Assembly: GCA_026929865.2 (NCBI GenBank)
Contig: CM049407.1
Span: 32,393,501-32,457,500 of the forward strand
DNA from: Hyperoplus lanceolatus
Taxonomy: Eukaryota; Chordata; Actinopteri; Uranoscopiformes; Ammodytidae
Length of the DNA stretch: 64,000 bases
Direction of reading: 5' to 3'
Shown here in pieces: positions 14,654-48,320 of this stretch; the first letter of the stretch is position 1, and each line of letters starts with the position of its first letter. Below the pieces are notes generated by a model. That model ran no database searches and had not been told where the DNA came from. It saw only the letters and a list, made by a program, of their open reading frames with translations. Position numbers and translations under genes: made by a program.

Positions 14654-14825
14654 CTAACGCTGCTTGATGACCACCAAGTTCTTCAGCATGTCGAAGGAGT
14701 TTCCATCCGGCTCCAGTGAGACCAGGCCCTGGTCCGGGCTGAGCACTGACAGGAACCCGTTCTGATCCAGACCCACCACCTCAGCCTCTACACCTTCCTC
14801 ACTCCACAGACGCACCCGGCTCCCA
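14654..14825 (-). CDS. hlcs: hlcs last coding exon with stop
   Basis: Holocarboxylase synthetase attaches biotin to carboxylases through biotinyl-AMP, in the cytosol and mitochondria. This exon encodes the C-terminal domain: GSRVRLWSEEGVEAEVVGLD, then LEPDGNSFDMLKNLV, ending VIKQR before TAG at 14654-14656. The human counterpart contains HPDGNSFDMLRNL. The exon starts in phase 2 after a CCACACAG acceptor. Upstream in the transcript the intron ends in a very long (TG)n tract only about 11 nt from the exon, leaving a short pyrimidine run (TTTCC). Reading straight through that tract gives a spurious Val-Cys repeat, so the exon start is set at the acceptor. Confidence 0.92.
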
Positions 14826-14833
14826 CTGTGTGG

Positions 14834-14836
<3 letters not shown>

Positions 14837-14913
<77 letters not shown>
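14837..14913. repeat. (CA)n microsatellite abutting a splice acceptor
   Basis: About 38 uninterrupted CA units. In the hlcs transcript this is (UG)n immediately upstream of the last exon's acceptor. Confidence 0.95.
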
Positions 14914-14917
<4 letters not shown>

Positions 14918-15038: not shown

Positions 15039-15252
15039 CTGTGAAGCCATCTCTTGTAGTAGGTGGGCAGGACTGAGTCTGGGCCTCCATGTTGGAAGCT
15101 ACTGATCAGGGCTTCCAGGCAGCTCACAGTCCGACCAATCAGCTGTGAGCAGGTTAGTGGCTGCAGGCAGCTGTCATGCAGTGTGTTGTACTGCTGGATC
15201 AGGTCATTGATGCATACTGTTGGGTTGCTGTTTGTCACATTGAACCCACAGC
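15039..15252 (-). CDS. hlcs: hlcs penultimate coding exon
   Basis: It encodes GCGFNVTNSNPTVCINDLI through PTYYKRWLH, the end of the biotin-protein ligase catalytic domain. The human sequence has GCGFNVTNSNPTICINDLI at the same place. It begins in phase 1 after a GTGCCCTACAG acceptor, fitting the phase-1 donor of either copy of the preceding exon (19149 or 27418), and ends in phase 2 with a GTCAGC donor. Length 214 bp, uninterrupted. Confidence 0.93.
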
Positions 15253-16050: not shown

Positions 16051-17246
16051 ACAGAATGAGATTTTGAAAAGACAGGGGGTCTCATATTGCAAGACTACAA
16101 CTAGATTCCTTTTGAGATTAATATGATTTCCAATCCTGTATCAGGGGATTAAAAGGAATTTCAGTCAAATAAAAATAACTGCTTTTTTTAGCAGGTAAAA
16201 TAGACTGGGTGTTTAGTAGCCTAAATATAAACAACTAGCCTATATGCCCTTATCACGTAATGTCATGCATAAACATTTTAAAAACCGCAAACGCGATTGT
16301 GATTATTTAAATTAAAAAAAGTAAAATAAATATTCCAAGCGGGGGACATCCTGTAGTTGTTAGATTATTTGCTGATCTCGTCCCCCAATAACTCTAGCTC
16401 CTAACCCTAAATGTGACGGCAAAGTGTTAAGGTTGCACAGTTGTCAGCCTGGTTCTCCAGCCGAGGCTGCTAGGTAAAAGTATCCGAAAAAAGTGCCTCA
16501 CAGGCATACACAGGTCGCGACTAATGCCGCGCCTCCTGGGTCGGGTTTGGTGCAGGAGAGAGTGTGACAGTGTTCACGTCATTTCGATTGAGCCAACCCC
16601 TCAAGACTAACGATAAAAATTGAAAAGTTGTGTAGTGTTATGCTGGGTTTACACTACACGACTTTTCACGCAATTTGACAGTCACAGACAATCTTCCAAT
16701 GTCGGACTGAAATCACAGGAGTCTTGCCGGAGTTGTGGCGCGCGCCCGTAATCTCAGTCGTTTGGTGTGAGGTAGTCATCCGACCCAATTTCACTCAGTC
16801 TTCTTCCCGTCTTGACGTTTCGACATTATCAAACACGTTTGATATTATCGTTAGTCTTAGGGGGTTGGCTTAAGCGAAATGACGTAAACACTGTCTCCTG
16901 CACCAAGCACGACACAGGAGGAGCGGCATTAGTCGCGACCTGTGTCCGCCTGTGAGGCACTTATTTCGGTCACTTTTACCTAGCAGCCTCGGCTGGAGAG
17001 CCAAGCTGACAGCTGCGCAACCTTAAGCTGGTCAAATAACTAAAGGAAGTCCCCCGCTTGGAATATTGAATTAACTTGTTTTTAATTTTAATTAAATAAT
17101 AACAATCGCGTTTGTGGAAATAATATTAATCTCAAAAGGAAACTAGTTGTAGTCTTGCAATATGAGACCCCCTGTCTTTTCAAAATCTCAGTCTGTGACT
17201 GAAAACTAATGACTAATTGTCCTCAGGTGTGGGTTGATTGTCTTTA

Positions 17247-17934
17247 TTTTAATTTTTTTATATTTTATTTTTGGAATTTTACTTTTTATAGAACACAAAC
17301 ATAGAACTAGAGACAAAACAAAACAAGCAAACAACATGGACCTGCTCCACATACAGTCATCAGCATTAAACAAGTACATAATCAATCATCACAGATCAAA
17401 ACCAAATAGACAAATGAAAGAATGCAAAGAGAAAGAGAAATAAATAAATAAAAATAAAAATAAAGAAAATAAAAATAAAAGGGTGGGGGAGTTAGTTCTA
17501 GGCCAGGGTCGATAAAGAATTAAAATAATTTATAAAAGAGTTCCATTTATTTTCAAATTTGGTGGGATAGCCTTTGATTGTTAGATTTATTTTTTCTAAT
17601 TTGAGAAATGACATAACGTCTTTAAGACAGATTGAAATAGTTGGGGGTGTAGGAGATTTCCACATAAGGAGAATACGGCGTCGTGCCAGAAGTGAGGTGA
17701 AGGCCAGCACCTCCGACTGCAAAGAGCTAAAATTGTGCCGCTCAGATGGGGTCCCAAATATCGCAATGAAGGGGTCCGTCCCAATCTGGGCCCCCAGAAC
17801 CCTCGTCTTGACCACAAAAAAGTCAGTCCAGAATCTATGCAGTCTGGGACAGTAAAAAAACATGTGACTCAAATTGCAAGATGAGGCGTGGCATCTGTCA
17901 CATTGGTCCACAACATTTGGATACATTTGAGATA
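17247..17934 (-). mobile_element. 5'-truncated L1-like LINE insertion
   Basis: It is flanked by a 15-bp direct repeat, GGTTGATTGTCTTTA (17232-17246 and 17935-17949), and the sister element near 25375 shows the site with a single copy. On the minus strand it encodes the end of an L1/Tx1-type ORF2, with CDRCHASSCNLSHMFFYCP (a CCHC-like motif) and LLARRRILLMWKSPTPPT. An A-rich tail sits at the low-coordinate end. These are hallmarks of target-primed reverse transcription. Confidence 0.88.
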
Positions 17935-18017
17935 GGTTGATTGTCTTTAGATGTGAGAGGGTGTCAGTCTTCAGTCTTTTCAAAGTCTTTTAAAAGTCCT
18001 CTGGTGTAAGCCCAGCA

Positions 18018-18776
18018 TTAGCCGAAACTCAATGATTTGATTTTTCAATTTATTTTGCAGTTGAAATAAAAAGCATTGTCAGTCTTTTAAAACTGAATCC
18101 ACTTCTAAAATATCTCATCAGTTTAATTATTTATTAAAAGAGGAATTATGCTGCGTGTTTTCTTATTCAAAATATATAATGACTAGACATCAGTTTGGGA
18201 ATCTCAATAATACCTATTTGCTAATACTGTATTGGTGTTTTTCTCTAAACCAAGAAGTAGATGTCCATGCAGTTGGCATGAATGAACCGTCTTTACATCT
18301 TCTGCCCTAAACTAAAAGGGGAAGAAAATTAAATCCAAATTTTTTGACATACTTATCAGATAGACATATTAAAATCAAAACTTCCTTAAAGAGGTGGATG
18401 TCTGAAAGGGGCTAAAATTTAAGAAGGTTTTAAGGTGAAATGAGACCAACATAGCCATTGTAAGTCATTCATTGACGTATTTAGTGTTACATAAGGTCTT
18501 CAAATGAACAAAAACCAACCACTCCTGTCAATAAACATGTTGATGGGGCATCATGCTGATATTAAAAAAAGGTTTTGTAAGGTGACACTTTTCGTTTGAA
18601 TATTAATTCAGCTCATAATAGCTTTGGACCTTCCAGTCCAACTTTCAGTATACATTCTCTCCCCTTTTCCAAAAAGTCAAGAAGATCAATTCAAATTGAT
18701 TTCATTAGCCCAATATCACAAGTAGCCATCCATTTGCCTCAGTGGGCTTCCCAGTCCGTGCAGCAATATGACACCC
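18018..18776. other. hlcs intron, nothing recognised
   Basis: AT-rich sequence with no exon or known repeat seen. It ends at the left boundary of the tandem duplication. Confidence 0.5.
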
Positions 18777-19148
18777 TCTGCCCTCAGACCCTTGAAGAGC
18801 CATGCTTACCCAATTTCTGTTGTTTAGCACTGAATTAAATTACTGAACAGCATTTTACATTTAATATGTATCAGTGACGATGAGTCTAAAGAGCCAACTT
18901 TCATCTTGTTTTGAAGGTGGATGACTTCATACTGGTGGAACAGTTAAAGAATGATAGCCTTTTCCGCACCAATTTCTATAGTGCAACAGACAAATGACCA
19001 ATTCCAGAGGAGCCATCATGTTCCCCCAGTAAGCAAGTAAGCAAAGAGCCCAAATAGAGTGGTGTGTTACAATATGTAAAGGAAGAGAATGAGTTAGGAG
19101 TTCCAAAGCCTCTCATCTCATTTGCTGTAACCAAGGGGAGGTTTTTAC

Positions 19149-19263
19149 CTATGAGCAGATGAAAGGTAGATCCTAGGACAGTGGAAGTGACCAGGACGCC
19201 CCCCAGCTTCATCAGGTTACTGTAGTAGATGTCATTGGGCCACTTCACCCTCAGGTCTATGTC
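19149..19263 (-). CDS. hlcs: hlcs catalytic exon B, copy 1
   Basis: This 115-bp exon encodes [20 protein letters not shown] onward to FHLLIG. KWPND carries the lysine regarded as catalytic in biotin-protein ligases, and human HLCS reads [19 protein letters not shown]. It starts in phase 0 after an ATTTTATAAG acceptor and ends in phase 1 (ATA G|GTAAAAA). It is the copy nearer the 15039 exon. Its translation is identical to exon B' at 27418-27532. Either copy, or both, could join to the downstream exon. Confidence 0.93.
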
Positions 19264-19509
19264 CTTATAAAATAAGTTCAAATATCATCAATCATTAACA
19301 CAAGAATTTTTCAATTAATACCCAATGCACTGAACTGCAATATACAACTGTATTTTGATTTCATATGCTGGTGATTCAATATGATATTCTGCTACTATGG
19401 ACAACTGTTTGGATTTTTAAGGTGTACATGTGTGGAAATATGGGCCAAATCACAGAAGATGTGTAGCCTAATCCAGTCTGCTAATATCTTGGAGTGTATA
19501 GGCTGATAC

Positions 19510-19670
19510 CTGGTATCCAGGAAGTGTGCAAACAGCTTCCACCACTGCCAGAGCAGCCAGGTGCTGCAGGAAGGGGATCCTCTGTCCTAGCCTGGAGCTC
19601 AGCTCCACCTGGACACTCACTGTGAACATGGCACAACCCACAGGGCTGAGCCAAACATTCCGGCCCCTAC
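19510..19670 (-). CDS. hlcs: hlcs catalytic exon A, copy 1
   Basis: This 161-bp exon begins in phase 1, completing Gly of the GRGRGRNVW nucleotide/biotin-binding loop (human GKGRGGNVW). It continues [18 protein letters not shown] and [19 protein letters not shown], ending PGYQ in phase 0 at a GTATCAG donor. The acceptor is GCTGCTGGTCCAG with a poor pyrimidine tract. The translation is identical to exon A' at 27779-27939. Confidence 0.93.
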
Positions 19671-20234
19671 CTGGACCAGCAGCAAACACAAGAAAGATAA
19701 AAGTGCACACTTAGTGGTACTAAATACCTATGATATACTCCTGATCAATACAATTAATAACAACAAAATGTAATGCAAGTGAAACTTTGGAATGTTTAAC
19801 CTATGATGGTCTATGCCTAACCTGCTGATACTGACTCACCCCAGCCAGTGTCTGCAGGCTATAGCCTCTTGTTTTAGCTTTAAACAATTAGCCATCAAGT
19901 AAACAATTAAAGAAAGGTGTCGTTCTTTAATTGTTTACTTTTTTACAATAAATACCCTTAATCTCAGTCTAGCCGCTGTTATGCCAATAAGTGGGCTAGT
20001 TTTCCCTGTTTTAGCCAGTTTGTGTAGATATTTCTTGAATTGTAGGTGCTCTCTTGTGCTTCAGACTTTTGAGAAGTCAAAGCACCCACCTTTCTAATCA
20101 CAGTGTCTGGGAGGGACACAGAGGAACTGTTGGACTCTCAATGGATTGGCCTGTAAAGGTGGAAACAGGTGAGCCTGTTGAGGTGTCTTGAGTTCTCGGG
20201 GATGTAAGGTACTACCTCAATGTTGAAGTTTTTA

Positions 20235-20935
20235 GGTGGCTGACCCAGGATCAGTAGCTGCGCACAGCCAAACATAGCAGCACGCTAGTCTGTGTTTTAA
20301 ACTGCTAACCACGGACCTATAACTGCTGCTAACAGCCACGTCTGTGTCGCGGGCGGCAGTTGCTCTCGGAAGCAACAGGAGAAACATTCTGCTCCGTTCA
20401 CGGGAGGAAACAAACGTCTGCAGTTTTCAGAGGTGTGTTAACGTCACATCAGGTGTCGGGGACGGGAATATTCTGACCAACCAGCTCAACTACAATTTAG
20501 TGACCTCCATACTTAAAAACAAAGCTACTACAAGATGTAGTCAAAACATAATCCCCGACCATCGATTTTGATGAATTTGGAGTTGATTTTCAAGTTATAT
20601 ATGCTTAATACATTGGCAATCACAATTAGCTTTTTGCTATTGGGATATAGGAAACCCTAATGATTTCCTCTCCAGATCCATAGTAAATTAGCAAGCGAGC
20701 TCGTTAGCTCATTAGCTAGCGCGCTAAGTTATTATGTTGTTTAAGAACTTGTAATCAGGTTACAGCAACAACTGACATCACAGTGGACATTAGCTAGCTA
20801 GTTTACTAGCAAGCCACTAAAGCAGCAGAGAGCCCCAGTTTCAGTTGATTCACAGACTTAAAGGTTCAGTTAGTGATATGGTCCTTTTAGCTAACTTCCT
20901 GTTAGTGACTGCAGTTAACAGTCCCCTCTTTAAAG
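20235..20935. repeat. Dispersed repeat, copy inside duplication
   Basis: Parts recur elsewhere: about 20440-20935 is inverted at 38290-38745, and about 20240-20360 resembles 47750-47900. It is repeated with the duplication at about 28504-29203. GCTAGCTAA-type words in both orientations are frequent. The family is not known. Confidence 0.6.
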
Positions 20936-22238
20936 CACTTTGTCTCCTGATTGAAAAAAAAATGAGCGGGATACTCGAAAATGTATCTGGCAATTACTGC
21001 AAAGCTGAATGACTTAGAGACCTGTGTTATGGACTGTGCATACTGTTTAAGTGATTGCTGTATGAATATAGAATGATTTAACATGTTTATTAACAATACA
21101 ATCCCTTACTTCTCCTTTAAATCCACCTGCTACCTGATCTTTCAATTAAAAAACCACACAAAACTCCTTCAAAGGCTTAGTGTCACTGCACAGTTGTCCT
21201 GATGGTTGCAGGGCGCCTAATGCTGGGCTTACACTACACGACTTTTCACGCGATTTGAAAGTCGCAGACAATCTTCCAATGTCGGGCTGAAATCACAGAA
21301 GTCGTGCTGGAGTTGTGGCGTGCGCACGTAATCTCAGTCGTTTGGTGTAAGGTGGTCTTCTGACCCGATTTCAGCTAGTCTTCTTCCCGTCTTGACGTTC
21401 CGACATTATCAAACATGTTTGATATTATCGTTAGTCTTAGGGGGTTGGCTCAAGCGAAATGACGTAAACACTGTCACACTCTGGCATGCACAAAGCACGA
21501 CGCAAGAGGAGCGGCATTAGTCGCGACCTGTGTCCGCCTGTGCAGGGACTTATTTAGGACACTTTTTCCTTGAAGCCTCGGCGGGAGAACCAGGCTGACA
21601 GCCGCGCAACTTTAACACTTTACCGTCAAATACATGGTTAGGAGTTACAGTTATCGGGGGACGAGATCAGCAAATAAAGATGGTCAAATAACTAAAGGAA
21701 GTCCCCCGCTCGGAATATTGAATTAACCTTTTTTTAATTAAATAATCACTATCGCGTTTGCTGAAATAATATTAATCTCACAAGGAATCTACCGTACTTT
21801 TCGGACTATAAGCCGCGACTTTTTCCCAATTTTTCGACCCTGTTATTACACAGCACAGTTCTGTAGCTACTAGGGATGGGCGTTAATAATCGAGTACTTG
21901 AGTACTCCTCGTTTCAAATGAACTCGATTGGTGGATGAGGAAAATCGTTTTTTTTTTTTTTTTTTTTAGTGTTTGTAGCCTTTAGGCCGGCCGGCGGGCC
22001 GCCCCTATTTTAAAATGTTATATACGTGTACAAAACGGCACTAAACGGATAAAATAAAGTTTAACAAAATTAAATATTTTGATGCAAGTGCAATAAACTG
22101 AGCGTTGTGTCAAAAAGCAACTGTAAATAATTGCCACCTCCGTGCCACCGCAGCGCAGCATGTGTTCTCCACAGCACCAGAGCTGAACACGGTCTCTCCT
22201 TTCTCCAGAACATTGTCAGCAATATAACTGTCCATATA

Positions 22239-23093
22239 CACTCAACAAAAATATAAACGCAACACTTTTGTTTTTGCTCCCATTTTTCATGAGATGGACT
22301 TAAAGATCTAAAATTCATTCCGGATACACAATTGTACCATTTCTCTTTAACATTGTTCACAAATCTGTCTAAATGTGTGATAGTGAGCACTTCTGCTTTG
22401 CTGAGATAATCCATCCCACCTCACAGGTGTGCCACATCAAGATGCTGATCTGACATCATGATTAGTGCACAGGTGTGCCTTAGACTGTCCACAATAAAAG
22501 GCCACCCTGAAATGTGCAGTTTTGTCTCACAGCAAAATGCCACAGATGCCACAAGCATTGAGGGAGCGTGCAATTGACATGCTGACAGCAGGAATGTCAA
22601 CCAGATCTGTTGCTCGTGCATTGAATGTTCATTTCTCCACCATAAGCCGTCTCCAGCAACTTCGCACAGCCATTGAAGAGGAGTGGAACAACATTCCACA
22701 GGCCACAATTGACAATCTGATAAACTCTATGCGAAGAAGATGTGTTGCACTGCATGAGGCAAATGGTGGTCACACCAGATACTGACTGGTTCTGAGTCCC
22801 CAGACCCCCAATAAAGCAAAACAATGCACATTTCAGAGTGGTCTTTTATTGTGGACAGTCTAAGGCACACCTGTGCACTAATCATGATGTCAGATCAGCA
22901 TCTTCATGTGGCACACCTGTGAGGTGGGATGGATTATCTCAGCAAAGCAGAAGTGCTCACTATCACACATTTAGACAGATTTGTGAACAATGTTTGAGAG
23001 AAATGGTACAATTGTGTATTCGGAATGAATTTTAGATCTTTAAGTCCATCTCATGAAAAATGGGAGCAAAAACAAAAGTGTTTTTGTTGAGTG
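22239..23093 (+). mobile_element. 855-bp internally deleted Tc1-like element
   Basis: It is flanked by TA (22237-22238 and 23094-23095) with inverted repeats of about 260 bp starting CACTCAACAAAAATATAAAC. It encodes an 87-residue frame that joins an N-terminal helix-turn-helix (QALRERAIDMLTAGMSTRSV, ARALNVHFSTISRLQ) directly to a Tc1 C-terminus (TIDNLINSMRRRCVALHEA, ending GGHTRY). The catalytic core is deleted. The duplicated locus at about 30509-30516 shows the intact empty TA site. Confidence 0.93.
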
Positions 23094-23180
23094 TATTTCA
23101 AAGCAGATGATAAAATTACGTTTATAAAAAGGGGAGATGACACCTGTTACTCTCAGTTAGTAATGAGTAGCCTAGACTCT

Positions 23181-24450
23181 TGGGGCCTCATTTATAAAGG
23201 TGTGCGTAGAAACCATCCTAAAACATTGCGTCCGCACAAAGCCAAAAATGTGCTGCGCAAAAAAAAAATCAGATTTATAAAACTGTGCGGCGCACACCTG
23301 CACGCAATCTTCCCTTTATAGATACCCACCTGCGGTGAATTGTGCGCAGAAGATCTCCACCCCGTGTCCTCCCACTTCACCTCCCAGTTTCATCCCACAA
23401 TCTACCATAAATGGCGAATGCTAAATAGCTCCTGAATATGATGACGCTCTTAATAAGCACGGAATTTTGACTGACATGAGGAAAACAGGGAGGCAACCGG
23501 CCGCAAAGAAAGCGACTGGGAAGGAAGAAAGCCTGTGACGAGCATGTGCTGCAGTAACTGGCACACAAACACAGACACACACACGCACGCACTGATCACA
23601 TATCATGATTGCCACATTCGTTATAGTCTTTGTAAAGCAGTTTCGCCCAACTTTGTACTGTATGCAATATCACGTATTAGCGAACCTGTAGGACTATATG
23701 TAGGCCTATATAAAATGTGTTGTGAGAAGTGAAAAAATGCATTAGCCTGTAGTCTATTCCAAAGCATTGTTTATCTCCTAGAGATCCACACATTTCCAAC
23801 AACATCAGATTATAGTTTAATCTTCCAGTGTGAATTATCATGGGAAAGAGATGCATGTAATGATTTGCTAAATTCATAACATGATTTTATCTAACAAAAT
23901 ATATAGTTGTAATTAATATCTGTTGGGCTTAACTTTGTACAGAACTACTTTTTACACACCTCTTAAAATTTGCTCTCCCCGCTGGCCACTCACGGAAACA
24001 CCTCCCGACGTTTGGGATATTATTATAGAGTAGCGCTATAAGATTCAATTTATAGAATATATCCAAAACATGTAGACTTAGGCTACTTGATACGTAATTC
24101 AACCTACATCACAACTGCATGCCATAGACTACAGTAGCCATATATTCGCAACTATAGGAAAGCTTATACATTTTATTGACTAAATATATTGGGTGCCAAG
24201 CTTTTGTCTGTGTTTTTCTGATGACAGAGCTTTATTTCGTGGTGTTGCCATTGAGTGGCGCTGATTCCCTGAGTCAGGAAAACCTTGCGGTAGCTCTACG
24301 CATGGTTGAAAGTTGGCGTAGGAATACGCACACTTCTCCACAAATAATGTTTTTATAAATACCGACGTTTGCCACTGCACATTTTCCCGCACATTGCTGG
24401 CCGTCTACGCAAGGTTTTTGTGCACCGCAAGCTTTATAAATGAGGCCCCA
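23181..24450. mobile_element. 1,270-bp TIR element (GGGGCCTCATTTATAAA)
   Basis: Ends are TGGGGCCTCATTTATAAA and TTTATAAATGAGGCCCCA. A related end occurs at 49458. Subterminal GTGCGTAG/CTACGCA-type words are inverted as well. No target duplication was resolved and no clear protein was seen. PIF/Harbinger is a guess, based on the relative at 49458 that carries a Myb-like coding remnant. Confidence 0.75.
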
Positions 24451-25649
24451 GTTGAGCATGCAAGGTGCTCTCCGCTTGGAAAGAAAAGTAAAGAAGAAGC
24501 AAGGCTTACTTCAGGCACATTCGCTCCGAGCCAACAACAGTTAAGAAGCCTTCAATAGGGAATATGGGGATACGATTCAAAAACTGACCGGGGTAACGTT
24601 CCGTTAATGAGGAATTAGTCACGGTAATTATTCACGGACACGGAGTGAGCATTACGCGGTTGGATATACAACTATCTGCTTTGATGGGTTATTTATATGT
24701 ATTTAAATTGTAGGAAAATCATTTAATATTATTTGCTGCCCTTCTTATTTTAAATGGTGACTTAGGCTATTTTTTTGTTACAACTACAGCCCATGTTTTT
24801 TTTCTCACCACTACTCGATCGGATTAAATTGTGGCCCGTCTATTTAATTACTTTCAGTGAGGAAAATGTGTTTTAAACTTGTGGGAATAAATCCTTAATA
24901 TCATATGGCAACTGTGACTGTTTGACAATAAGCATTGAGCGCTTTATTGCGGTGAACCGTTGTTCTGCAGACAGATGCGTTGCGTTCTAAAAATAGAAAA
25001 AAAGTTTAACGAGGAATCGATTGATCCTCGAGGAATGAAGCGATCACACGAGTAGTGAAAACACTCGTGCCCATCCCTAGTAGCTATTGCACTAAATGGT
25101 AACACTTGAATACGTTATGCAAATATGCAACTTGTTTGTTGAAATGTTAATAAATGGGAGATTCCTCAAGCAGCCATCTCTTTCCCGACAATCCCCTCTG
25201 TGCACGAATTCTTAAATATGGTAATTAAACATTATAACACCTGCGGCTTATAGTCCAGTGCGGCTTATAGTGCGGAAAATACGGTAGTTGTAGTCTTGCA
25301 ATATGAGACCCCCTGTCTTTTCAAAATCTCACTCTGTGACTGAAAACTAATGACTAGTTGTCTTCAGGTGTGAGTTGATTGTCTTTAGATGTAAGAGGGT
25401 TTTTGTCTTCAGTCTTTTCAAAGTCTTTTAAAAGTCCTCTAGTGTAAGCCCAGCATTACTATTGTTGACATCAAAGAACTTCAAAAGCTTCCTGCATGAA
25501 CAGATCACTGAAGTCCAGCCCTCCTCAAACTTGTCTCCAGTCTTGTGTCCAAGGTTGGAGAAGTTACTAAACCATCATTTATACTCGCTCAATGCATCTA
25601 GCAGCACACCAGTAGGAGCTGGAATCAGAAAACTCTGGGGCTTGCTGTA

Positions 25650-27045
25650 CACTGCCATCCTTCAAGCAGTTTGTTACATGTCCAACAAGGAATCACAGGA
25701 CTATCGATTTGTTTTATGCCAACATCAAAGACAGTTACACATCCACTGCTCTGCCACCACTTGGCAGCTCTGACCATAACCTAGTGCTGCTTTCAACCAA
25801 ATACACCACACAGGCCCGAAAACAACCCACATCCACCAAATCAGTTCGTGTGTGGTCTACGGAGGCATGTGAAGAATTAAAGGCCTGCTTCGAAAGCACA
25901 GACTGGTCCGTGTTTAAGGACGAGGACAATTTTGATAGTTTTAACCGGATTGACAGTGTGGCTGATTGTGTTTCTGATTATATAAAGTTCTGTACTGACA
26001 TGATCATCCCATGTAAAACCATCAAACTCTTCACAAACAACAAGCCGTGGGTCACTAAGGAAATAAAGAGTGCTATTAACAACAAAAAGGCTGCCTTCAT
26101 GAGCAGAGATAGGGAAAAAATTAAATCAGCACAGAAACATCTTAAACAGGTCATAAGGCAGGGTAAGAGGGATTTTAAGGTAAAGGTGGAAAATAAACTT
26201 GAGGAGTGCGACACTAAAGGTATATGGAGGGGCCTTAAGTCCCAATAACACGTTAGGGCACTGCTAGTTCTCACCTTGGGAGGGGTGCTTTCACCGGATG
26301 AGCCAACCAATTCTTTGCCCGGTTTGAAACCATGGACCTCCCAGCTGTGGACATGGCAACCCGCCACTGGAGTCGGGGTAGCCTCAGCCCCTGTCCCCCT
26401 ATAACGGTCACAGTGGATGAAGTACGCTCACAGCTTTTAAGGCTCAATGTAAATAAGGCACCTGGTCCGGATGGGGTCATGCCACGAGTTTTAAAAGTAT
26501 GTGCTGATCAGCTGTGTACAGTATTGCATTTTATATTTTCTTTGTCTCTGTCCCTGTCTAAAATTCCAGTTTCATGGAAAACCTCATGTATTGTGCCCGT
26601 GCCTAAGAAACCTAACGCCAGAGCACTTAAAGACATGAGACCTATTGCCTTAACCTCTCACATAATGAAATGTTTTGAAAGGACTGTACTAGGGCACTTA
26701 AAGAAGCAGGTCTGTGCCTTTCAGGACCCACTACAGTTTGCCTATAGAGAAGGGCTGGGTGTGGACGATGCCCTCCTCTACCTGTTGCACAGAGTATACA
26801 GCCATCTGGAGCAAACCTATGCATCTGTACGAATAATGTTTTTTGATTTTTCTAGTGCTTTTAACACACTGCAGCCACATATTTTAGCCAGCAAGCTTTT
26901 AAATTTTAACCTCAACAGCTCCACTGTTGCATGGGTCACAGACTACCTCACTAGTAGACCCCAGTTTGTACGGCTTCATGGTACTAGCTCTGGCATTATT
27001 ACCACAAATACTGGGGCCCCACAAGGTACGGTTCTATCTCCGTTT
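25650..27045 (+). mobile_element. CR1/L2-type LINE fragment between the duplicated copies
   Basis: The first frame (about 25650-26245) reads FKQFVTCPTRNHRTIDLFYA and LPPLGSSDHNLVLL, the end of an apurinic endonuclease domain, then the linker NNKPWVTKEIKSAINNKKAA. After a frame break, 26332-27045 gives the start of the reverse transcriptase: NKAPGPDGVMPRVLK, MRPIALTSHIMKCFE, FDFSSAFNT and GAPQGTVLSP. The catalytic FADD-type box and everything after are missing, as is the LINE 5' end. Both truncations coincide with the duplication boundaries. Confidence 0.9.
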
Positions 27046-27417
27046 TCTGCCCTCAGACCCTTGAAGAGCCATGCTTACCCAATTTCTGTTGTTTAGCACT
27101 GAATTAAATTACTGAACAGCATTTTACATTTAATATGTATCAGTGACGATGAGTCTAAAGAGCCAACTTTCATCTTGTTTTGAAGGTGGATGACTTCATA
27201 CTGGTGGAACAGTTAAAGAATGATAGCCTTTTCCGCACCAATTTCTATAGTGCAACAGACAAATGACCAATTCCAGAGGAGCCATCATGTTCCCCCAGTA
27301 AGCAAGTAAGCAAAGAGCCCAAATAGAGTGGTGTGTTACAATATGTAAAGGAAGAGAATGAGTTAGGAGTTCCAAAGCCTCTCATCTCATTTGCTGTAAC
27401 CAAGGGGAGGTTTTTAC

Positions 27418-27532
27418 CTATGAGCAGATGAAAGGTAGATCCTAGGACAGTGGAAGTGACCAGGACGCCCCCCAGCTTCATCAGGTTACTGTAGTAGATG
27501 TCATTGGGCCACTTCACCCTCAGGTCTATGTC
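27418..27532 (-). CDS. hlcs: hlcs catalytic exon B', copy 2
   Basis: Same exon as 19149-19263, with the same acceptor, donor and translation ([11 protein letters not shown] core). In transcript order it comes before the copy-1 pair. Its phase-1 donor fits the phase-1 acceptor of exon A at 19670, so B'-A splicing keeps frame and gives HLLIGRGRNVW at the junction. It fits equally well with the downstream exon at 15252. Confidence 0.9.
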
Positions 27533-27778
27533 CTTATAAAATAAGTTCAAATATCATCAATCATTAACACAAGAATTTTTCAATTAATACCCAATGCACT
27601 GAACTGCAATATACAACTGTATTTTGATTTCATATGCTGGTGATTCAATATGATATTCTGCTACTATGGACAACTGTTTGGATTTTTAAGGTGTACATGT
27701 GTGGAAATATGGGCCAAATCACAGAAGATGTGTAGCCTAATCCAGTCTGCTAATATCTTGGAGTGTATAGGCTGATAC

Positions 27779-27939
27779 CTGGTATCCAGGAAGTGTGCAA
27801 ACAGCTTCCACCACTGCCAGAGCAGCCAGGTGCTGCAGGAAGGGGATCCTCTGTCCTAGCCTGGAGCTCAGCTCCACCTGGACACTCACTGTGAACATGG
27901 CACAACCCACAGGGCTGAGCCAAACATTCCGGCCCCTAC
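27779..27939 (-). CDS. hlcs: hlcs catalytic exon A', copy 2
   Basis: Same exon as 19510-19670 with an identical translation. It is the copy nearest the upstream exon at 48253, about 20.3 kb away. Joining the two yields [19 protein letters not shown], the ligase nucleotide-binding loop. Confidence 0.9.
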
Positions 27940-28503
27940 CTGGACCAGCAGCAAACACAAGAAAGATAAAAGTGCACACTTAGTGGTACTAAATACCTAT
28001 GATATACTCCTGATCAATACAATTAATAACAACAAAATGTAATGCAAGTGAAACTTTGGAATGTTTAACCTATGATGGTCTATGCCTAACCTGCTGATAC
28101 TGACTCACCCCAGCCAGTGTCTGCAGGCTATAGCCTCTTGTTTTAGCTTTAAACAATTAGCCATCAAGTAAACAATTAAAGAAAGGTGTCGTTCTTTAAT
28201 TGTTTACTTTTTTACAATAAATACCCTTAATCTCAGTCTAGCCGCTGTTATGCCAATAAGTGGGCTAGTTTTCCCTGTTTTAGCCAGTTTGTGTAGATAT
28301 TTCTTGAATTGTAGGTGCTCTCTTGTGCTTCAGACTTTTGAGAAGTCAAAGCACCCACCTTTCTAATCACAGTGTCTGGGAGGGACACAGAGGAACTGTT
28401 GGACTCTCAATGGTTTGGCCTGTAAAGGTGGAAACAGGTGAGCCTGTTGAGGTGTCTTGAGTTCTCGGGGATGTAAGGTACTACCTCAATGTTGAAGTTT
28501 TTA

Positions 28504-29203
28504 GGTGGCTGACCCAGGATCAGTAGCTGCGCACAGCCAAACATAGCAGCACGCTAGTCTGTGTTTTAAAATGCTAACCACGGACCTATAACTGCTGCTA
28601 ACAGCCACGTCTGTGTCGCGGGCGGCAGTTGCTCTCGGAAGCAACAGGAGAAACATTCTGCTCCGTTCACGGGAGGAAACAAACGTCTGCAGTTTTCAGA
28701 GGTGTGTTAACGTCACATCAGGTGTCGGGACGGGAATATTCTGACCAACCAGCTCAACTACAATTTAGTGACCTCCATACTTAAAAACAAAGCTACTACA
28801 AGATGTAGTCAAAACATAATCCCCGACCATCGATTTTGATGAATTTGGAGTTGATTTTCAAGTTATATATGCTTAATACATTGGCAATCACAATTAGCTT
28901 TTTGCTATTGGGATATAGGAAACCCTAATGATTTCCTCTCCAGATCCATAGTAAATTAGCAAGCGAGCTCGTTAGCTCATTAGCTAGCGCGCTAAGTTAT
29001 TATGTTGTTTAAGAACTTGTAATCAGGTTACAGCAACAACTGACATCACAGTGGACATTAGCTAGCTAGTTTACTAGCAAGCCACTAAAGCAGCAGAGAG
29101 CCCCAGTTTCAGTTGATTCACAGACTTAAAGGTTCAGTTAGTGATATGGTCCTTTTAGCTAACTTCCTGTTAGTGACTGCAGTTAACAGTCCCCTCTTTA
29201 AAG
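28504..29203. repeat. Dispersed repeat, copy in duplicated segment
   Basis: Duplicate of 20235-20935 with a one-base deletion (GTCGGGACGG against GTCGGGGACGG) and a few substitutions. Confidence 0.6.
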
Positions 29204-29488
29204 CACTTTGTCTCTTGATTGAAAAAAAAATGAGCGGGATACTCGAAAATGTATCTGGCAATTACTGCAAAGCTGAATGACTTAGAGACCTGTGTTATGG
29301 ACTGTGCATACTGTTTAAGTGATTGCTGTATGAATATAGAATGATTTAACATGTTTATTAACAATAAAATCCCTTACTTCTCCTTTAAATCCACCTGCTA
29401 CCTGATCTTTCAATTAAAAAACCACACAAAACTCCTTCAAAGGCTTAGTGTCACTGCACAGTTGTCCTGATGGTTGCAGGGCGCCTAA

Positions 29489-32400
29489 TGCTGGGCTTAC
29501 ACTACACGACTTTTCACGCGATTTGAAAGTCGCAGACAATCTTCCAATGTCGGGCTGAAATCACAGAAATCGTGCTGGAGTTGTGGCGTGCGCACGTAAT
29601 CTCAGTCGTTTGGTGTAAGGTGGTCTTCTGACCCGATTTCAGCTAGTCTTCTTCCCGTCTTGACGTTCCGACATTATCAAACATGTTTGATATTATCGTT
29701 AGTCTTAGGGGGTTGGCTCAAGCGAAATGACGTAAACACTGTCACACTCTGGCATGCACAAAGCACGACGCAAGAGGAGCGGCATTAGTCGCGACCTGTG
29801 TCCGCCTGTGCAGGGACTTATTTAGGACACTTTTTCCTTGAAGCCTCGGCGGGAAAACCAGGCTGACAGCCGCGCAACTTTAACACTTTACCGTCAAATA
29901 CAGGGTTAGGAGTTACAGTTATCGGGGGACGAGATCAGCAAATAAAGATGGTCAAATAACTAAAGGAAGTCCCCCGCTCGGAATATTGAATTAACCTTTT
30001 TTTAATTAAATAATCACTATCGCGTTTGCTGAAATAATATTAATCTCACAAGGAATCTACCGTACTTTTCGGACTATAAGCCGCGACTTTTTCCCAATTT
30101 TTCGACCCTGTTATTACACAGCACAGTTCTGTAGCTACTAGGGATGGGCGTTAATAATCGAGTACTTGAGTACTCCTCGTTTCAAATGAACTCGATTGGT
30201 GGATGAGGAAAATCGTTTTTTTTTTTTATTTTTTTTTTTTAGTGTTTGTAGCCTTTAGGCCGGCCGGCGGGCCGCCCCTATTTTAAAATGTTATATACGT
30301 GTACAAAACGGCACTAAACGGATAAAATAAAGTTTAACAAAATTAAATATTTTGATGCAAGTGCAATAAACTGAGCGTTGTGTCAAAAAGCAACTGTAAA
30401 TAATTGCCACCTCCGTGCCACCGCAGCGCAGCATGTGTTCTCCACAGCACCACAGAGCTGAACACGGTCTCTCCTTTCTCCAGAACATTGTCAGCAATAT
30501 AACTGTCCATATATTTCAAAGCAGATGATAAAATTACGTTTATAAAAAGGGGAGATGACACCTGTTACTCTCAGTTAGTAATGAGTAGCCTAGACTCTTG
30601 GGGCCTCATTTATAAAGGTGTGCGTAGAAACCATCCTAAAACATTGCGTCCGCACAAAGCCAAAAATGTGCTGCGCAAAAAAAAAATCAGATTTATAAAA
30701 CTGTGCGGCGCACACCTGCACGCAATCTTCCCTTTATAGATACCCACCTGCGGTGAATTGTGCGCAGAAGATCCCCACCCCGTGTCCTCCCACTTCACCT
30801 CCCAGTTTCATCCCACAATCTACCATAAATGGCGAATGCTAAATAGCTCCTGAATATGATGACGCTCTTAATAAGCACGGAATTTTGACTGACATGAGGA
30901 AAACAGGGAGGCAACCGGCCGCAAAGAAAGCGACTGGGAAGGAAGAAAGCCTGTGACGAGCATGTGCTGCAGTAACTGGCACACAAACACAGACACACAC
31001 ACGCACGCACTGATCACATATCATGATTGCCACATTCGTTATAGTCTTTGTAAAGCAGTTTCGCCCAACTTTGTACTGTATGCAATATCACGTATTAGCG
31101 AACCTGTAGGACTATATGTAGGCCTATATAAAATGTGTTGTGAGAAGTGAAAAAATGCATTAGCCTGTAGTCTATTCCAAAGCATTGTTTATCTCCTAGA
31201 GATCCACACATTTCCAACAACATCAGATTATAGTTTAATCTTCCAGTGTGAATTATCATGGGAAAGAGATGCATGTAATGATTTGCTAAATTCATAACAT
31301 GATTTTATCTAACAAAATATATAGTTGTAATTAATATCTGTTGGGCTTAACTTTGTACAGAACTACTTTTTACACACCTCTTAAAATTTGCTCTCCCCGC
31401 TGGCCACTCACGGAAACACCTCCCGACGTTTGGGATATTATTATAGAGTAGCGCTATAAGATTCAATTTATAGAATATATCCAAAACATGTAGACTTAGG
31501 CTACTTGATACGTAATTCAACCTACATCACAACTGCATGCCATAGACTACAGTAGCCATATATTCGCAACTATAGGAAAGCTTATACATTTTATTGACTA
31601 AATATATTGGGTGCCAAGCTTTTGTCTGTGTTTTTCTGATGACAGAGCTTTATTTCGTGGTGTTGCCATTGAGTGGCGCTGATTCCCTGAGTCAGGAAAA
31701 CCTTGCGGTAGCTCTACGCATGGTTGAAAGTTGGCGTAGGAATACGCACACTTCTCCACAAATAATGTTTTTATAAATACCGACGTTTGCCACTGCACAT
31801 TTTCCCGCACATTGCTGGCCGTCTACGCAAGGTTTTTGTGCACCGCAAGCTTTATAAATGAGGCCCCAGTTGAGCATGCAAGGTGCTCTCCGCTTGGAAA
31901 GAAAAGTAAAGAAGAAGCAAGGCTTACTTCAGGCACATTCGCTCCGAGCCAACAACAGTTAAGAAGCCTTCAATAGGGAATATGGGGATACGATTCAAAA
32001 ACTGACCGGGGTAACGTTCCGTTAATGAGGAATTAGTCGCGGTAATTATTCACGGACACGGAGTGAGCATTACGCGGTTGGATATACAACTATCTGCTTT
32101 GATGGGTTATTTATATGTATTTAAATTGTAGGAAAATCATTTAATATTATTTGCTGCCCTTCTTATTTTAAATGGTGACTTAGGCTATTTTTTTGTTACA
32201 ACTACAGCCCATGTTTTTTTTCTCACCACTACTCGATCGGATTAAATTGTGGCCCGTCTATTTAATTACTTTCAGTGAGGAAAATGTGTTTTAAACTTGT
32301 GGGAATAAATCCTTAATATCATATGGCAACTGTGACTGTTTGACAATAAGCATTGAGCGCTTTATTGCGGTGAACCGTTGTTCTGCAGACAGATGCGTTG

Positions 32401-32873
32401 CGTTCTAAAAATAGAAAAAAGTTTAACGAGGAATCGATTGATCCTCGAGGAATGCAAGCGATCACACGAGTAGTGAAAACACTCGTGCCCATCCCTAGTA
32501 GCTATTGCACTAAATGGTAACACTTGAATACGTTATGCAAATATGCAACTTGTTTGTTGAAATGTTAATAAATGGGAGATTCCTCAAGCAGCCATCTCTT
32601 TCCCGACAATCCCCTCTGTGCACGAATTCTTAAATATGGTAATTAAACATTATAACACCTGCGGCTTATAGTCCAGTGCGGCTTATAGTGCGGAAAATAC
32701 GGTAGTTGTAGTCTTGCAATATGAGACCCCCTGTCTTTTCAAAATCTCACTCTGTGACTGAAAACTAATGACTAGTTGTCTTCAGGTGTGAGTTGATTGT
32801 CTTTAGATGTAAGAGGGTTTTTGTCTTCAGTCTTTTCAAAGTCTTTTAAAAGTCCTCTAGTGTAAGCCCAGCA
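29489..32873. mobile_element. TGCTGGG-type element with nested insertions, copy 2
   Basis: Same nesting as copy 1: the CCGTA element at 30060-32702, the hAT at 30139-32497 (flanks GTAGCTAC and GTAGCTAT) and the GGGGCCTC element at 30599-31868. The Tc1 insertion is absent; CTGTCCATATATTTCAAAG at about 30504-30522 is the empty site. A T-rich run near 30215-30240 differs in length from copy 1. Confidence 0.88.
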
Positions 32874-33097
32874 TTACTATTGTTGACATCAAAGAACTTC
32901 AAAAGCTTCCTGCATGAACAGATCACTGAAGTCCAGCCCTCCTCAAACTTGTCTCCAGTCTTGTGTCCAAGGTTGGAGAAGTTACTAAACCATCATTTAT
33001 ACTCGCTCAATGCATCTAGCAGCACACCAGTAGGAGCTGGAATCAGAAAACTCTGGGGCTTGCTGTAAAACTCCAAAATGAGCATGGTAGCTCAGAA

Positions 33098-33198
33098 CTG
33101 GTTCTGAACCTATTTAGGTTCAGAACCAGACTTCTTCATAGGTTGTGTCAATGCAATGCTCATTTGAGCATTGCATTGACACAACCTATGAAGAAGTC
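33098..33198. repeat. Two adjoining perfect palindromes
   Basis: The first has 15-bp arms (33098-33112 and 33115-33129, CTGGTTCTGAACCTA) and the second has 34-bp arms (33129-33162 and 33165-33198). Both have a TT spacer and share one base. They start 31 bp past the duplication edge. Each could form a near-loopless hairpin or cruciform. Confidence 0.95.
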
Positions 33199-33562
33199 CT
33201 TTGTGTCCAGAAGTCAGCTGCCAACTTTGCTTCTGATGACCCGGATAAGTAGCTGCACTCAGTTGGCCTGTTGAGATGCATTGGCCCTCTCCACAGTTGG
33301 AGTGATCATTTTGATCTTGTGGTCTTCACACCCAATGGTCATCGCACAACACATGCGATGGCCACTTCGACTCACAAGCAACAAATGGCATTGAAAGTGA
33401 ACGAGCACCGCATGGCATGACCTCAAAATAGTTTTTGAATTAAAAGATCAGGTTGCAGGTGGATTTAAGTTTGTAAAGTTGCACACTCCGGGAGAAGGGG
33501 CAACATTGAATTTACTTATGCTGCTATAGTGGCTTTCTAATTAGCTTATGTCAATCGCAATG
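33199..33562. other. hlcs intron, nothing recognised
   Basis: No known repeat or exon recognised. Confidence 0.45.
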
Positions 33563-36500
33563 ATAACGCTTTACAATAAGGGTACATTAATTAATGGCTA
33601 GTTAATGCTTAATAAGGTTTAACTAACCATTAGTTAACTGTTAACTAATGTGTCTAGTAAGCATTTACTAATGGTATTCATGTTAACTAAGGTATTAATT
33701 ACTACATTATGTAATGTTTATAAATATCCTATGTTAACCTTAGTTAACCGATTAATTAAGCATGAACCAACAGTTGATTAAAATAATAATAAGCATTAAT
33801 TAACTGTTAACAAATGTCATTTTTGTAACATTACTTAAGCATAGTTAACCATGTATTAATGCTGTTTGTGACCCTTATTGTAAAGTGGGAACCATTTATC
33901 CATTAAGTAACACTTAATAAATGCACACCAGTGCTGAATAGGCATTACTCAAGTGTAATTAACCATTTATTAATGAACTGTGTGACCCTTATTGTAAAGT
34001 GAGAACCATTTCTCATGAATTAACACCTAATAAAGGCATACTAGTGCTGATTGAGCATCACTTGAGCATAATTAACCATTTCTTAATGTTATTTGTGACC
34101 CTTATTGTAAAGTGGGAACCATTTATCACTTGTTACACTTAATAAATGCAAAATAGTGCTGAATAAGGATTACCTGAGTACAATCTCCATCAATCAACAT
34201 TGCTCTTTGTGACCTGTGTACATTCTCTATAATAACAATATTAAACATACTAAAATATTTCCAACTGGAAATCAATTCATGACAACAATCTGTTATCAAC
34301 ACAATTCAGTCAGAATTTAAAAAAGAAAGAAAATGTTATTTTATTTAGAATCTTTAGTTTTATTTGGAAACACGGCTCTCACATTTGACATGAATACCGT
34401 CAAAGAACTCCAAAATAGTTTCTTCAACAAATTATATCCAGTTTAATGATTTTCTCTGAAAGTAACAAACAGGAGGAAATGGAGTACTAACAGCAATGGT
34501 GAAACACACTGACTCAACAGTTAGGTTTAACAGGTAAATATGTATTTTCTACTCTCTTCCTTGAAGTGTATATCATTGTTGCAACATAAACAAAAATAAA
34601 ATACACAAAGAACATAACAGTTCCATTTTAATTAAGGACTAAAGTTAAAACAAAATAATGATCATTCTCTTGTGACTAAACACTAGTTTAACCTGGCCCT
34701 ATCACTGTTATTTCAATGAGCACATATGTATTTAATTTAAGCTTTATTTATACTCGAAAGATCAGTTGAGGGGTGACCCACATTTATAATCTCTCGCTCT
34801 CTTTAGATCCAGTTCTTGGGTTTGCTGGCCACTCCAGGCCTGGGTGCTCCTCTCCAAATGAAGCAGTTGGGCTGGAATCCAATAATCTTGTCTAATCACC
34901 AAGTTGATGTACATGGAAAAAATGAAAATAATCAGTTAACAGTTCAGATGCATTTTTGTTTCCTTTATCTAAATCATTATAGCATAGCATTACGGTTCCA
35001 CATTATGTATTATTATAATATAATGCATTGCATTGCTTAACTGAAATATCTTTGGTACCTTAATCAAATAAAATTCTCACTGATTCTCACTTTAACAAGT
35101 TGACACTATTTTTTCATTCAAAAAATATGTAATCTTTATGACCATTCTACAAAACACATGCTCAGCTTTAGCTCATTTTAGCAAGAAATAGCAACATGCA
35201 CTTTGGAATAATGTTAACATTTATTCACATACGTTTTGGTGTCCATGAACACACACTTTATTTAGCCACCATTACAATTACTGCTAAAAGTTACATGTGA
35301 AGATAGCCAGCACAAGCCTCATGCTAACGCTGCTCATATAGCAGCACGATAATGCTAACGTTGCTATGCTAGCGGAAGGCTGTGTCGCTAATATATTTCA
35401 AAGTATTCTTACATACACACAACTATATCATCTCACTAACACCTTAATTAACTCACCAATAATTTCATTTGGCTAATAGCAGCATAACTGTAACCACCAC
35501 AGGTCTTTTGTGTGAGAATAATGGGTCGGTCAGGTCAAGCTTTCTTTAAGCACGTAGCTCAGCTGCTGCTTTTACTGTCCAGGCACACATCCGTCTTTCT
35601 ATCCTCCCAGTGGCCAGGATCCAGTAAAAAACGAGATCTATAGGTGATTTATATGATCAATAATAGGCTATTGATAATCAACAATGGCTGTAGAGGGAAT
35701 GCATGTCTGTATGCAATGTATTTTCAACTTTGGGAAGGTGAAAATATGTTTGGAGACTTTACTTAAGAAAAATATTTCTTTACAAACCTTATTGACATGA
35801 GGATTACCCACGTTTTTCAAGCACTTGAACTCAACCAGCGATTAGCCAGCAAGGAAGAGGATGTGTGTCTGGACAGTGAAGCAACAGGCCAGCAGCTATG
35901 TGCTTTTTTCTCACAAAAGACCCGTGGTGGTTACAATTACAGTATGCTGCCATTAGCCCAACAAAATTATTGGTGAGTTAACTAAGGTATTCGTGAGATG
36001 ATATAGTTGTGTGTGTGTATGTAAGAAATGAATAATGTGAAATATATTAGTGATGCAGCCTCCCGCTAGCATAGCACCGTTAGCATGTGGCTTGTGCTGG
36101 CTAGCTTCACAGGTAACTTTTAGCAGTAATTGTAGCTTTGTAGACACCAAACCATATGTGAACACATGTAAGCATTTTCCATATTCAAAGTGCACGTTGC
36201 TATTCCAGGCTAAAATGGGCTGAAACTGAGCATGTGTTGTGTAGAATCGTCATAGAGATTACATATTTTTTGAATTAAAAAATAGTGTCAACTTGTTAAA
36301 GGTTCAGTGAGAATTTTTTTAAATTTCAGTTTCAGCAATGCAATGCATTATATTATAATAATAATACATAATGTGGAACCGTAATGCTATGCTATAATGA
36401 TTTAGATAAAGGAAACAAAAATGCATCTGAACTGTTAACTGATTATTTTAATTTTTTTCCATGTACATCAACTTGGTGATTAGACAAGATTCTTGGATTC

Positions 36501-37812
36501 CAGCCCAACTGCTTCATTTGGAGAGGAGCACCCAGGCCTGGAGTGGCCAGCAAACCCAAGAACTGGATCTAAAGAGAGCGAGAGATTATAAATGAGGGTC
36601 ACCCCTCAACTGATCTTTTGAGTATAAATAAAGGTTAAATTAAATACATATGTGCTCATTCAAATAACAATGATAGGGCCAGGTTAAAGTAGTGTTTAGT
36701 CACAAGAGAATGATCGTTATTTTGTTTTATCTTTAGTCCTTAATTAAAATGGAACTGTTATGTTCTTTGTGTATTTTATTTTTGTTTATGTTGCAACAAT
36801 GATATACACTTCAAGGAAGAGAGTAGAAAATACATATTTACCTGTTAAACCTAACTGTTGAGTCAGTGTGTTTCACCATTGCTGTTAGTACTCCATTTCC
36901 TCCTGTTTGTTACTTACAGAGAAAATCATTAAACTGGATATAATTTGTTGAAGAAACTATTTTGGAGTTCTTTGACGGTATTCATGTCAAATGTGAGAGC
37001 CGTGTTTCCAAATAAAACTAAAGATTCTAAATAAAATAACATTTTCTTTCTTTTTTAAATTCTGACTGAATTGTGTTGATAACAGATTGTTGTCATGAAT
37101 TGATTTCCAGTTGGAAATATTTTAGTATGTTTAATATTGTTATTATAGAGAATGTACACAGGTCACAAAGAGCAATGTTGATTGATGGAGATTGTACTTA
37201 GGTAATCCTTATTCAGCACTATTTTGCATTTATTAAGTGTAACAAGTGATGAATGGTTCCCACTTTACAATAAGGGTCACAAATAACATTAGAAATGGTT
37301 AATTATGCTTAAGTGATGCTTAATCAGCACTAGTATGCCTTTATTAGGTGTTAATTCATGAGAAATGGTTCTCACTTTACAATAAGGGTCACAAAGTCCA
37401 TTAGTAAATGGTTAATTACACTTAAGTAATGCCTATTCAGCACTGGTGTGCATTTATTAAGTGTTACTTAATGGATAAATGGTTCCCACTTTACAATAAG
37501 GGTCACAAAGAGCATTAATACATGGTTAATTATGCTTAAGTAATGTTACAAAAATGACATTTGTTAACAGTTAATTAATGCTTATTATTATATTAATCAA
37601 CTGTTAGTTCAAGCATAATTAATGGGTTAACTAAGGTTAATATAGGATATTTATAAACAGTACATAATGTAGTAATTAATACCTTAGTTAACATTAATAC
37701 CATTAGTGAATGCTTATTAGACACATTAGTTAACAGTTAACTAATGGTTAGTTAAACCTTATTAAGCATTAACTAACCATTAATTAATGTACCCTTATTG
37801 TAAAGTGTTACC
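33563..37812. repeat. Giant foldback element, about 4.25 kb
   Basis: The outer ends are mirror images (CTTTACAATAAGGGTACATT left; AATGTACCCTTATTGTAAAG right). Arms are about 2 kb each, to about 35605 and from about 35835, with a spacer of about 230 bp. Each arm has three tandem units of about 114 bp (left at 33871, 33985, 34098), each carrying CCCTTATTGTAAAGTG, the terminal sequence in reverse. The arms differ by scattered substitutions. The stretch TTGGGTTTGCTGGCCACTCC (34817) recurs inverted near 36545. No protein domain or target duplication was found. Confidence 0.85.
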
Positions 37813-48252: not shown

Positions 48253-48320
48253 CTCTGCCTTGGCTTTGTCGAGCAGCTACTGCTATTAACCCCAGATCCT
48301 TTGGTAAGTGCAGAGTCAGC
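48253..48320 (-). CDS. hlcs: hlcs exon upstream of the duplicated pair
   Basis: A 68-bp exon encoding LTLHLPKDLGLIAVAARQSQ and then GR plus the first base of Gly. Human HLCS has EMGLIVIAARQTEGKGRGG at this place. It starts in phase 2 after a TCTTTTCTCCTTCCAG acceptor and ends in phase 1 (AGA G|GTCAGT), matching the phase-1 acceptor of exon A. It begins the catalytic domain's nucleotide-binding loop. The next exons upstream were not recognised in the remaining 15.7 kb. Confidence 0.9.

Follow-up and report, generated by a model that had tools for sequence, protein, structure and literature searches.

Two exons of the catalytic core of hlcs, the gene of a biotin-attaching enzyme, stand twice, head to tail, in this assembly. 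Is this the design of a gene, a young mutation, or a product of the way in which the chromosome was put together? What we see resembles one chromosome segment present in two versions, set one behind the other either in assembly or through a recent rearrangement; it does not resemble a gene design that has become established. We put the probability that it is a false haplotypic (heterotype) duplication in the assembly at roughly 0.48, slightly short of even; this weight, like those behind the wording of the two other readings, is a judgement and not a computed value, and a small remainder is given to none of the three.

The doubled exon pair

The window analysed is a 64,000-bp stretch (C13:32393501-32457500) of a genome of 806.7 Mb in 527 contigs. 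hlcs lies on its minus strand and comprises, within the window, a 68-bp exon, the doubled pair A + B, exon C and the last exon D; an additional exon lies upstream, beyond the window, with its end near C13:32490990 (spotted by eye). The exons, in the direction of transcription, are as follows.

48253-48320, minus strand: the 68-bp exon that precedes A' in hlcs, ending in QGR+G, phase 1
27779-27939, minus strand: exon A' of copy 2, identical to A (AG/GT sites, translation)
27418-27532, minus strand: exon B' of copy 2, identical to B (AG/GT sites, translation)
19510-19670, minus strand: exon A of copy 1, 161 bp, with the GRGRNVW loop (AG/GT sites, translation, Pfam PF03099)
19149-19263, minus strand: exon B of copy 1, 115 bp, with KWPND (AG/GT sites, translation, Pfam PF03099)
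15039-15252, minus strand: exon C, starting CGFNV..., in phase 1
14654-14825, minus strand: last exon D, carrying the stop codon

All AG acceptors and GT donors of the four doubled exons are intact. The first-pass annotation had described doubled exons with intact splice sites and identical translations, flanked by phase 1 introns, adding 92 codons and recreating IGRGRNVW; a comparison of the exon sequences with their AG/GT sites, and of the single and double translations, bears this description out. In a genome-wide family search, hlcs exons were found at this locus only (4 matches; 2 first-look candidates), and the two pairs score equally against the profile (34.7/34.7 and 31.4/31.4 bits). 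Within 14000-49000, no RNA family reached its gathering score.

Spliced once, A and B yield a tail of 242 aa; spliced twice, they yield 334 aa, 92 more and in frame, and the translation runs ...HLLIGRGRNVW... where the pairs meet. The addition is exactly 92 codons because the introns on either side of the pair are in phase 1. Such preservation of frame is automatic for any set of exons between introns of the same phase and is nothing special to this event. Given the length and identity of the repeat, a chance origin of the doubling is excluded.

The single form carries a BPL_LplA_LipB catalytic domain with the GRGR loop and the KWPND lysine (Pfam PF03099, 103.9 bits), and BPL_C (PF02237) comes just below its cut-off, at 19.7 against 21 bits. 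A comparison with the PDB matched 28 sequences, with biotin ligases, BirA among them, at the top. In the double form, two PF03099 stretches total 178.5 bits, BPL_C is not listed at E 0.001, and a second partial domain precedes CGFNV, within the one BPL_LplA_LipB domain. In the literature collection searched, no publication joins holocarboxylase synthetase with 'exon duplication' or 'intragenic duplication', and among the titles listed by a wider search none deals with such a duplication. A search on intragenic tandem duplications and retrotransposons led to a paper on human FGF12.

Repeat copies, spacer and ancestral order

The exon pairs are part of two long repeat copies, separated by a spacer and bordered on both sides by dispersed repeats. 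The LINE nature of the spacer and the transposon in copy 1 go beyond the first-pass annotation.

18685-18793, unstranded: short dispersed repeat across the left edge, 18776/18777 (genome search, alignment)
18777-25649, unstranded: repeat copy 1, 6,873 bp, with exons A + B (repeat search and self-BLAST)
22239-23093, unstranded: 855-bp terminal-inverted-repeat DNA transposon with a TA target duplication, in copy 1 only (copy comparison)
25650-27045, plus strand: spacer of 1,396 bp, an internal piece of a LINE that lacks both ends (genome search, Pfam)
27046-33067, unstranded: repeat copy 2, 6,022 bp, with exons A' + B' (repeat search and self-BLAST)
32876-33467, unstranded: dispersed repeat across the right edge, 33067/33068, whose copy-1 counterpart is broken at 25649

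By self-BLAST the copies are identical at 99.57% over 3,469 columns and at 99.84% over 2,557 columns. In about 6.0 kb they differ by 9 substitutions, a divergence of 0.15%, and by 5 small indels (2 in runs of G or A, 1 in a T tract), in addition to the 855-bp insertion in copy 1. The inverted repeats at the ends of the transposon are about 290 bp long, and copy 2 retains the intact empty site at 30512-30513; these two features, together with the TA duplication, identify the difference as a true transposition and not a sequencing error. Judged by their sequence, the copies differ in the way that two alleles do; a real duplication that has since diverged could look equally allele-like.

The spacer ends inside a reverse-transcriptase domain, of which it covers profile positions 2-128 out of 205 (PF00078). 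It is matched at 1396/1396 bases in at least 3 places in the genome (the window, C15 and C18), and at least 10 further places cover it at 96-98% identity, one of them over bases 2-1396; the search gave 40 matches, with 40 of the 59 first-look candidates scored, and these counts are accordingly lower bounds. Since the LINE copies on C15 and C18 agree at every base, the LINE is a young one, and its insertion may well be heterozygous. The copy on C18 continues for 967 bp beyond the end of the spacer, up to a tail of TCCTA repeats. For this missing 3' part of about 967 bp, a search of 264 kb around the locus gave no match. LINE insertion begins at the 3' end, by target-primed reverse transcription; an internal fragment has therefore been either cut by the seam or captured as filler. 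Each of the two seams, between copy 1 and the LINE and between the LINE and copy 2, shares 1 bp of sequence. We rejected the idea that the spacer is a displaced left or right flank, as it has no other match in the window or in the 264 kb.

Which of the four borders of this arrangement are old? The repeat at the right edge aligns across 33067/33068 at no fewer than 18 other places: 15 over query positions 209-800, two over 209-753 and one over 209-660. This search listed 85 matches and scored 40 out of 1049 candidates. At the left edge, 40 of 40 other places among the matches listed span 18776/18777, with an overlap of only 8-24 bases on the side of the copy; here the search listed 42 matches, with 40 out of 1130 candidates scored. 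Three places were examined for each edge, from the 18 on the right and the 40 on the left, and in all six the base-by-base alignment runs through the edge and is free of gaps there. Repeats unbroken across both outer edges mean that the joins of the left flank to copy 1 and of copy 2 to the right flank are original. The ancestral order is therefore left flank, one copy, right flank, and only the seam from copy 1 through the LINE piece to copy 2 is derived. Such an order is what a tandem duplication predicts and is shared with a false duplication, so the edges leave the odds between these two unchanged.

Some details of the flanks can be added here. We rejected Tc1-like transposon as a label for the right-edge repeat: its frame at 33113-33325 has no Pfam match, and we therefore call it a dispersed repeat. 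Just to the right of copy 2 lies a large inverted repeat (33564-35518 and 35906-37810) with arms of nearly 2 kb, about 91% identical and 387 bp apart. Near the left edge, though not at it, repeat pieces are clustered at 16287-18020 and are related to stretches inside the duplicated segment (within 20441-22182; 25285-25458).

Assembly artefact or recent rearrangement

If the duplication is false, each real chromosome would carry a single A + B pair. One allele would have the 855-bp transposon and, at 25649, a LINE that inserted recently; the other would have neither. In the assembly, the first allele would stop within the LINE, whose sequence has perfect copies elsewhere, and the second would resume after the broken-off LINE, at the equivalent of 18777. 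This account draws on the low divergence and on a transposon that is cleanly present in one copy and absent from the other, where its site is empty, on outer edges that are original around a derived seam, on the perfect LINE copies on C15 and C18, and on a LINE piece that lacks its last ~967 bp and stops in the reverse-transcriptase domain, which a normal insertion would not. Differences like those of alleles, a LINE that is cut and outer edges in their ancestral state are what we observe; that the copies are alleles and the seam artificial is what this account infers.

False duplications on the same scaffold are a documented class, and the description of the heterotype form in PMC9516828, as far as it bears on this case, resembles hlcs in its near-identical, allele-like neighbours on one scaffold and in the doubling of exons of one gene. 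In the same account a gap between the copies is most usual, and unsupported filled sequence occurs only sometimes. The hlcs seam differs in having no gap of N, and there is no N in the 264 kb around the locus. The copies are separated by a piece of LINE that is truncated on either side. It also counts against a false duplication that we found no specific assembly step that gives such a gapless join, and that neither edge has a third copy, or a haplotig of its own, among the matches listed in the edge searches.

A real and recent intragenic tandem duplication, probably heterozygous and with the LINE as filler, is a serious possibility, to which we assign somewhat less than an even chance. A break or template switch may have linked the right-hand part of the segment to a left-hand part, either its own or, by unequal exchange, that of the other allele. 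About 1.4 kb of LINE would have been captured in the process; all four exons would be spliced by default, and the insertion of 92 residues would disable the enzyme made from that allele. Recent intragenic tandem exon duplications with filler at the junction are a known class of structural variant. The hlcs arrangement is like them in its head-to-tail copies, its inserted foreign fragment and the sharing of about 1 bp at the seams, which resembles end joining. The seamless, N-free sequence and the nature of the filler, an internal piece of a LINE, fit this reading as well. The hlcs arrangement is unlike this class in that the copies differ more than those of a fresh duplication should, unless they were alleles.

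Time is a difficulty for this reading. If the copies diverged after a real duplication, the 9 substitutions and the transposon require a long time, and an old duplication is hard to fit with the default disruption of an essential enzyme. Loss of HLCS is embryonic lethal in mouse, according to PMC8985998; an old duplication that by default adds 92 residues to the catalytic core should therefore have been purged. The objection lapses if what was joined were two different alleles in the first place. The spacer adds an argument against a real duplication: had filler and source each aged for as long as the copies, the expectation for the spacer would be about 2.1 differences, and 0 are observed (P ~0.12).

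Can the assembly itself be trusted? As controls, we looked at the exons of two other families, PF00118 (61/61 candidates scored) and PF00270 (49/138 scored). Among 50 matches each, no two had the same profile range and score (by eye). In PF00118, neighbouring exons overlap in profile range by at most 33 positions (C21), with different scores, and in PF00270 two overlapping pairs about 95 kb apart (C16, C7) also differ in score. The two families thus contain no further near-identical doubled exon, and these controls, though small, lean towards a real event. The LINE copies on C15 and C18, on the other hand, raise a question about the assembly: C15:25562094-25575717 equals C18:22590605-22604228 over 13,624 bp with zero mismatches, and in the flanking DNA examined no alignment continues beyond the limits of the block. 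The block holds LINEs, including one that matches the spacer. Its identity could reflect an assembler reusing one sequence or a very recent real copy, and in the second case it would not speak for a false duplication at hlcs. The block also contains a stretch that, by eye, resembles a PAN-domain exon.

We considered whether the region is generally badly assembled and rejected this. We examined two of the other near-identical direct pairs in the 264 kb; their flanks differ, and each pair has the look of independent copies of a repeat (numbering of the joined 264-kb stretch).

208740-210038 with 212486-213787: direct pair 1
173881-174743 with 177337-178192: direct pair 2

A false duplication would make hlcs a concise case of the kind of artefact that may pass through automated annotation as an internally duplicated or novel hlcs isoform, and would show that dispersed repeats crossing the edges can give the ancestral order without reads. 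A real one would be a naturally occurring allele with a duplication inside an essential gene of vitamin metabolism, and a system in which to test the splicing of an exactly doubled exon pair.

Possible use of both exon pairs

The first-pass annotation had also proposed that either pair might be used alternatively, that the ligase might have a doubled active site, or that one pair might be silent. The anatomy, phases and identity on which these proposals were built stand; the uses themselves are proposals from sequence. That an established duplication is in use, with AB and A'B' mutually exclusive or with a tolerated ligase carrying a doubled segment, seems to us improbable. Slimmer still is the chance we would give to a tolerated duplication in which transcripts take either pair, or all four exons make a working ligase with a doubled active-site segment of 92 residues.

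The intact exons, frames and splice sites of both pairs would suit such use, as would the exon-bearing 1,368 bp, where there are 0 differences against 14 small events in the remainder (positional P ~0.03, with the region picked post hoc). The identity of A and B between the copies is itself uninformative, since at 0.15% divergence 0.4 differences are expected in 276 bp; for this reason we dropped an old duplication under selection as the lead reading. Identical pairs moreover make identical proteins and leave no diversity of products to select, and the doubled form would place its additional partial domain inside the catalytic domain. Diverged alternative exons with different products are not what we find here. 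In human, according to PMC9741552, tandem-exon substitutions are mostly ancient, and the changes between the homologous regions are mostly conservative. hlcs is like tandem duplicated, mutually exclusive exons in having tandem, phase-symmetric exons in one gene, and unlike them in that its unit is an exon pair, its products are identical and it bears no sign of age or conservation.

At the 3' end of the gene, a TG/AC dinucleotide tract of 41 units (14836-14917) stops 10 bases before the start of the last hlcs exon, and its length could affect hlcs splicing.
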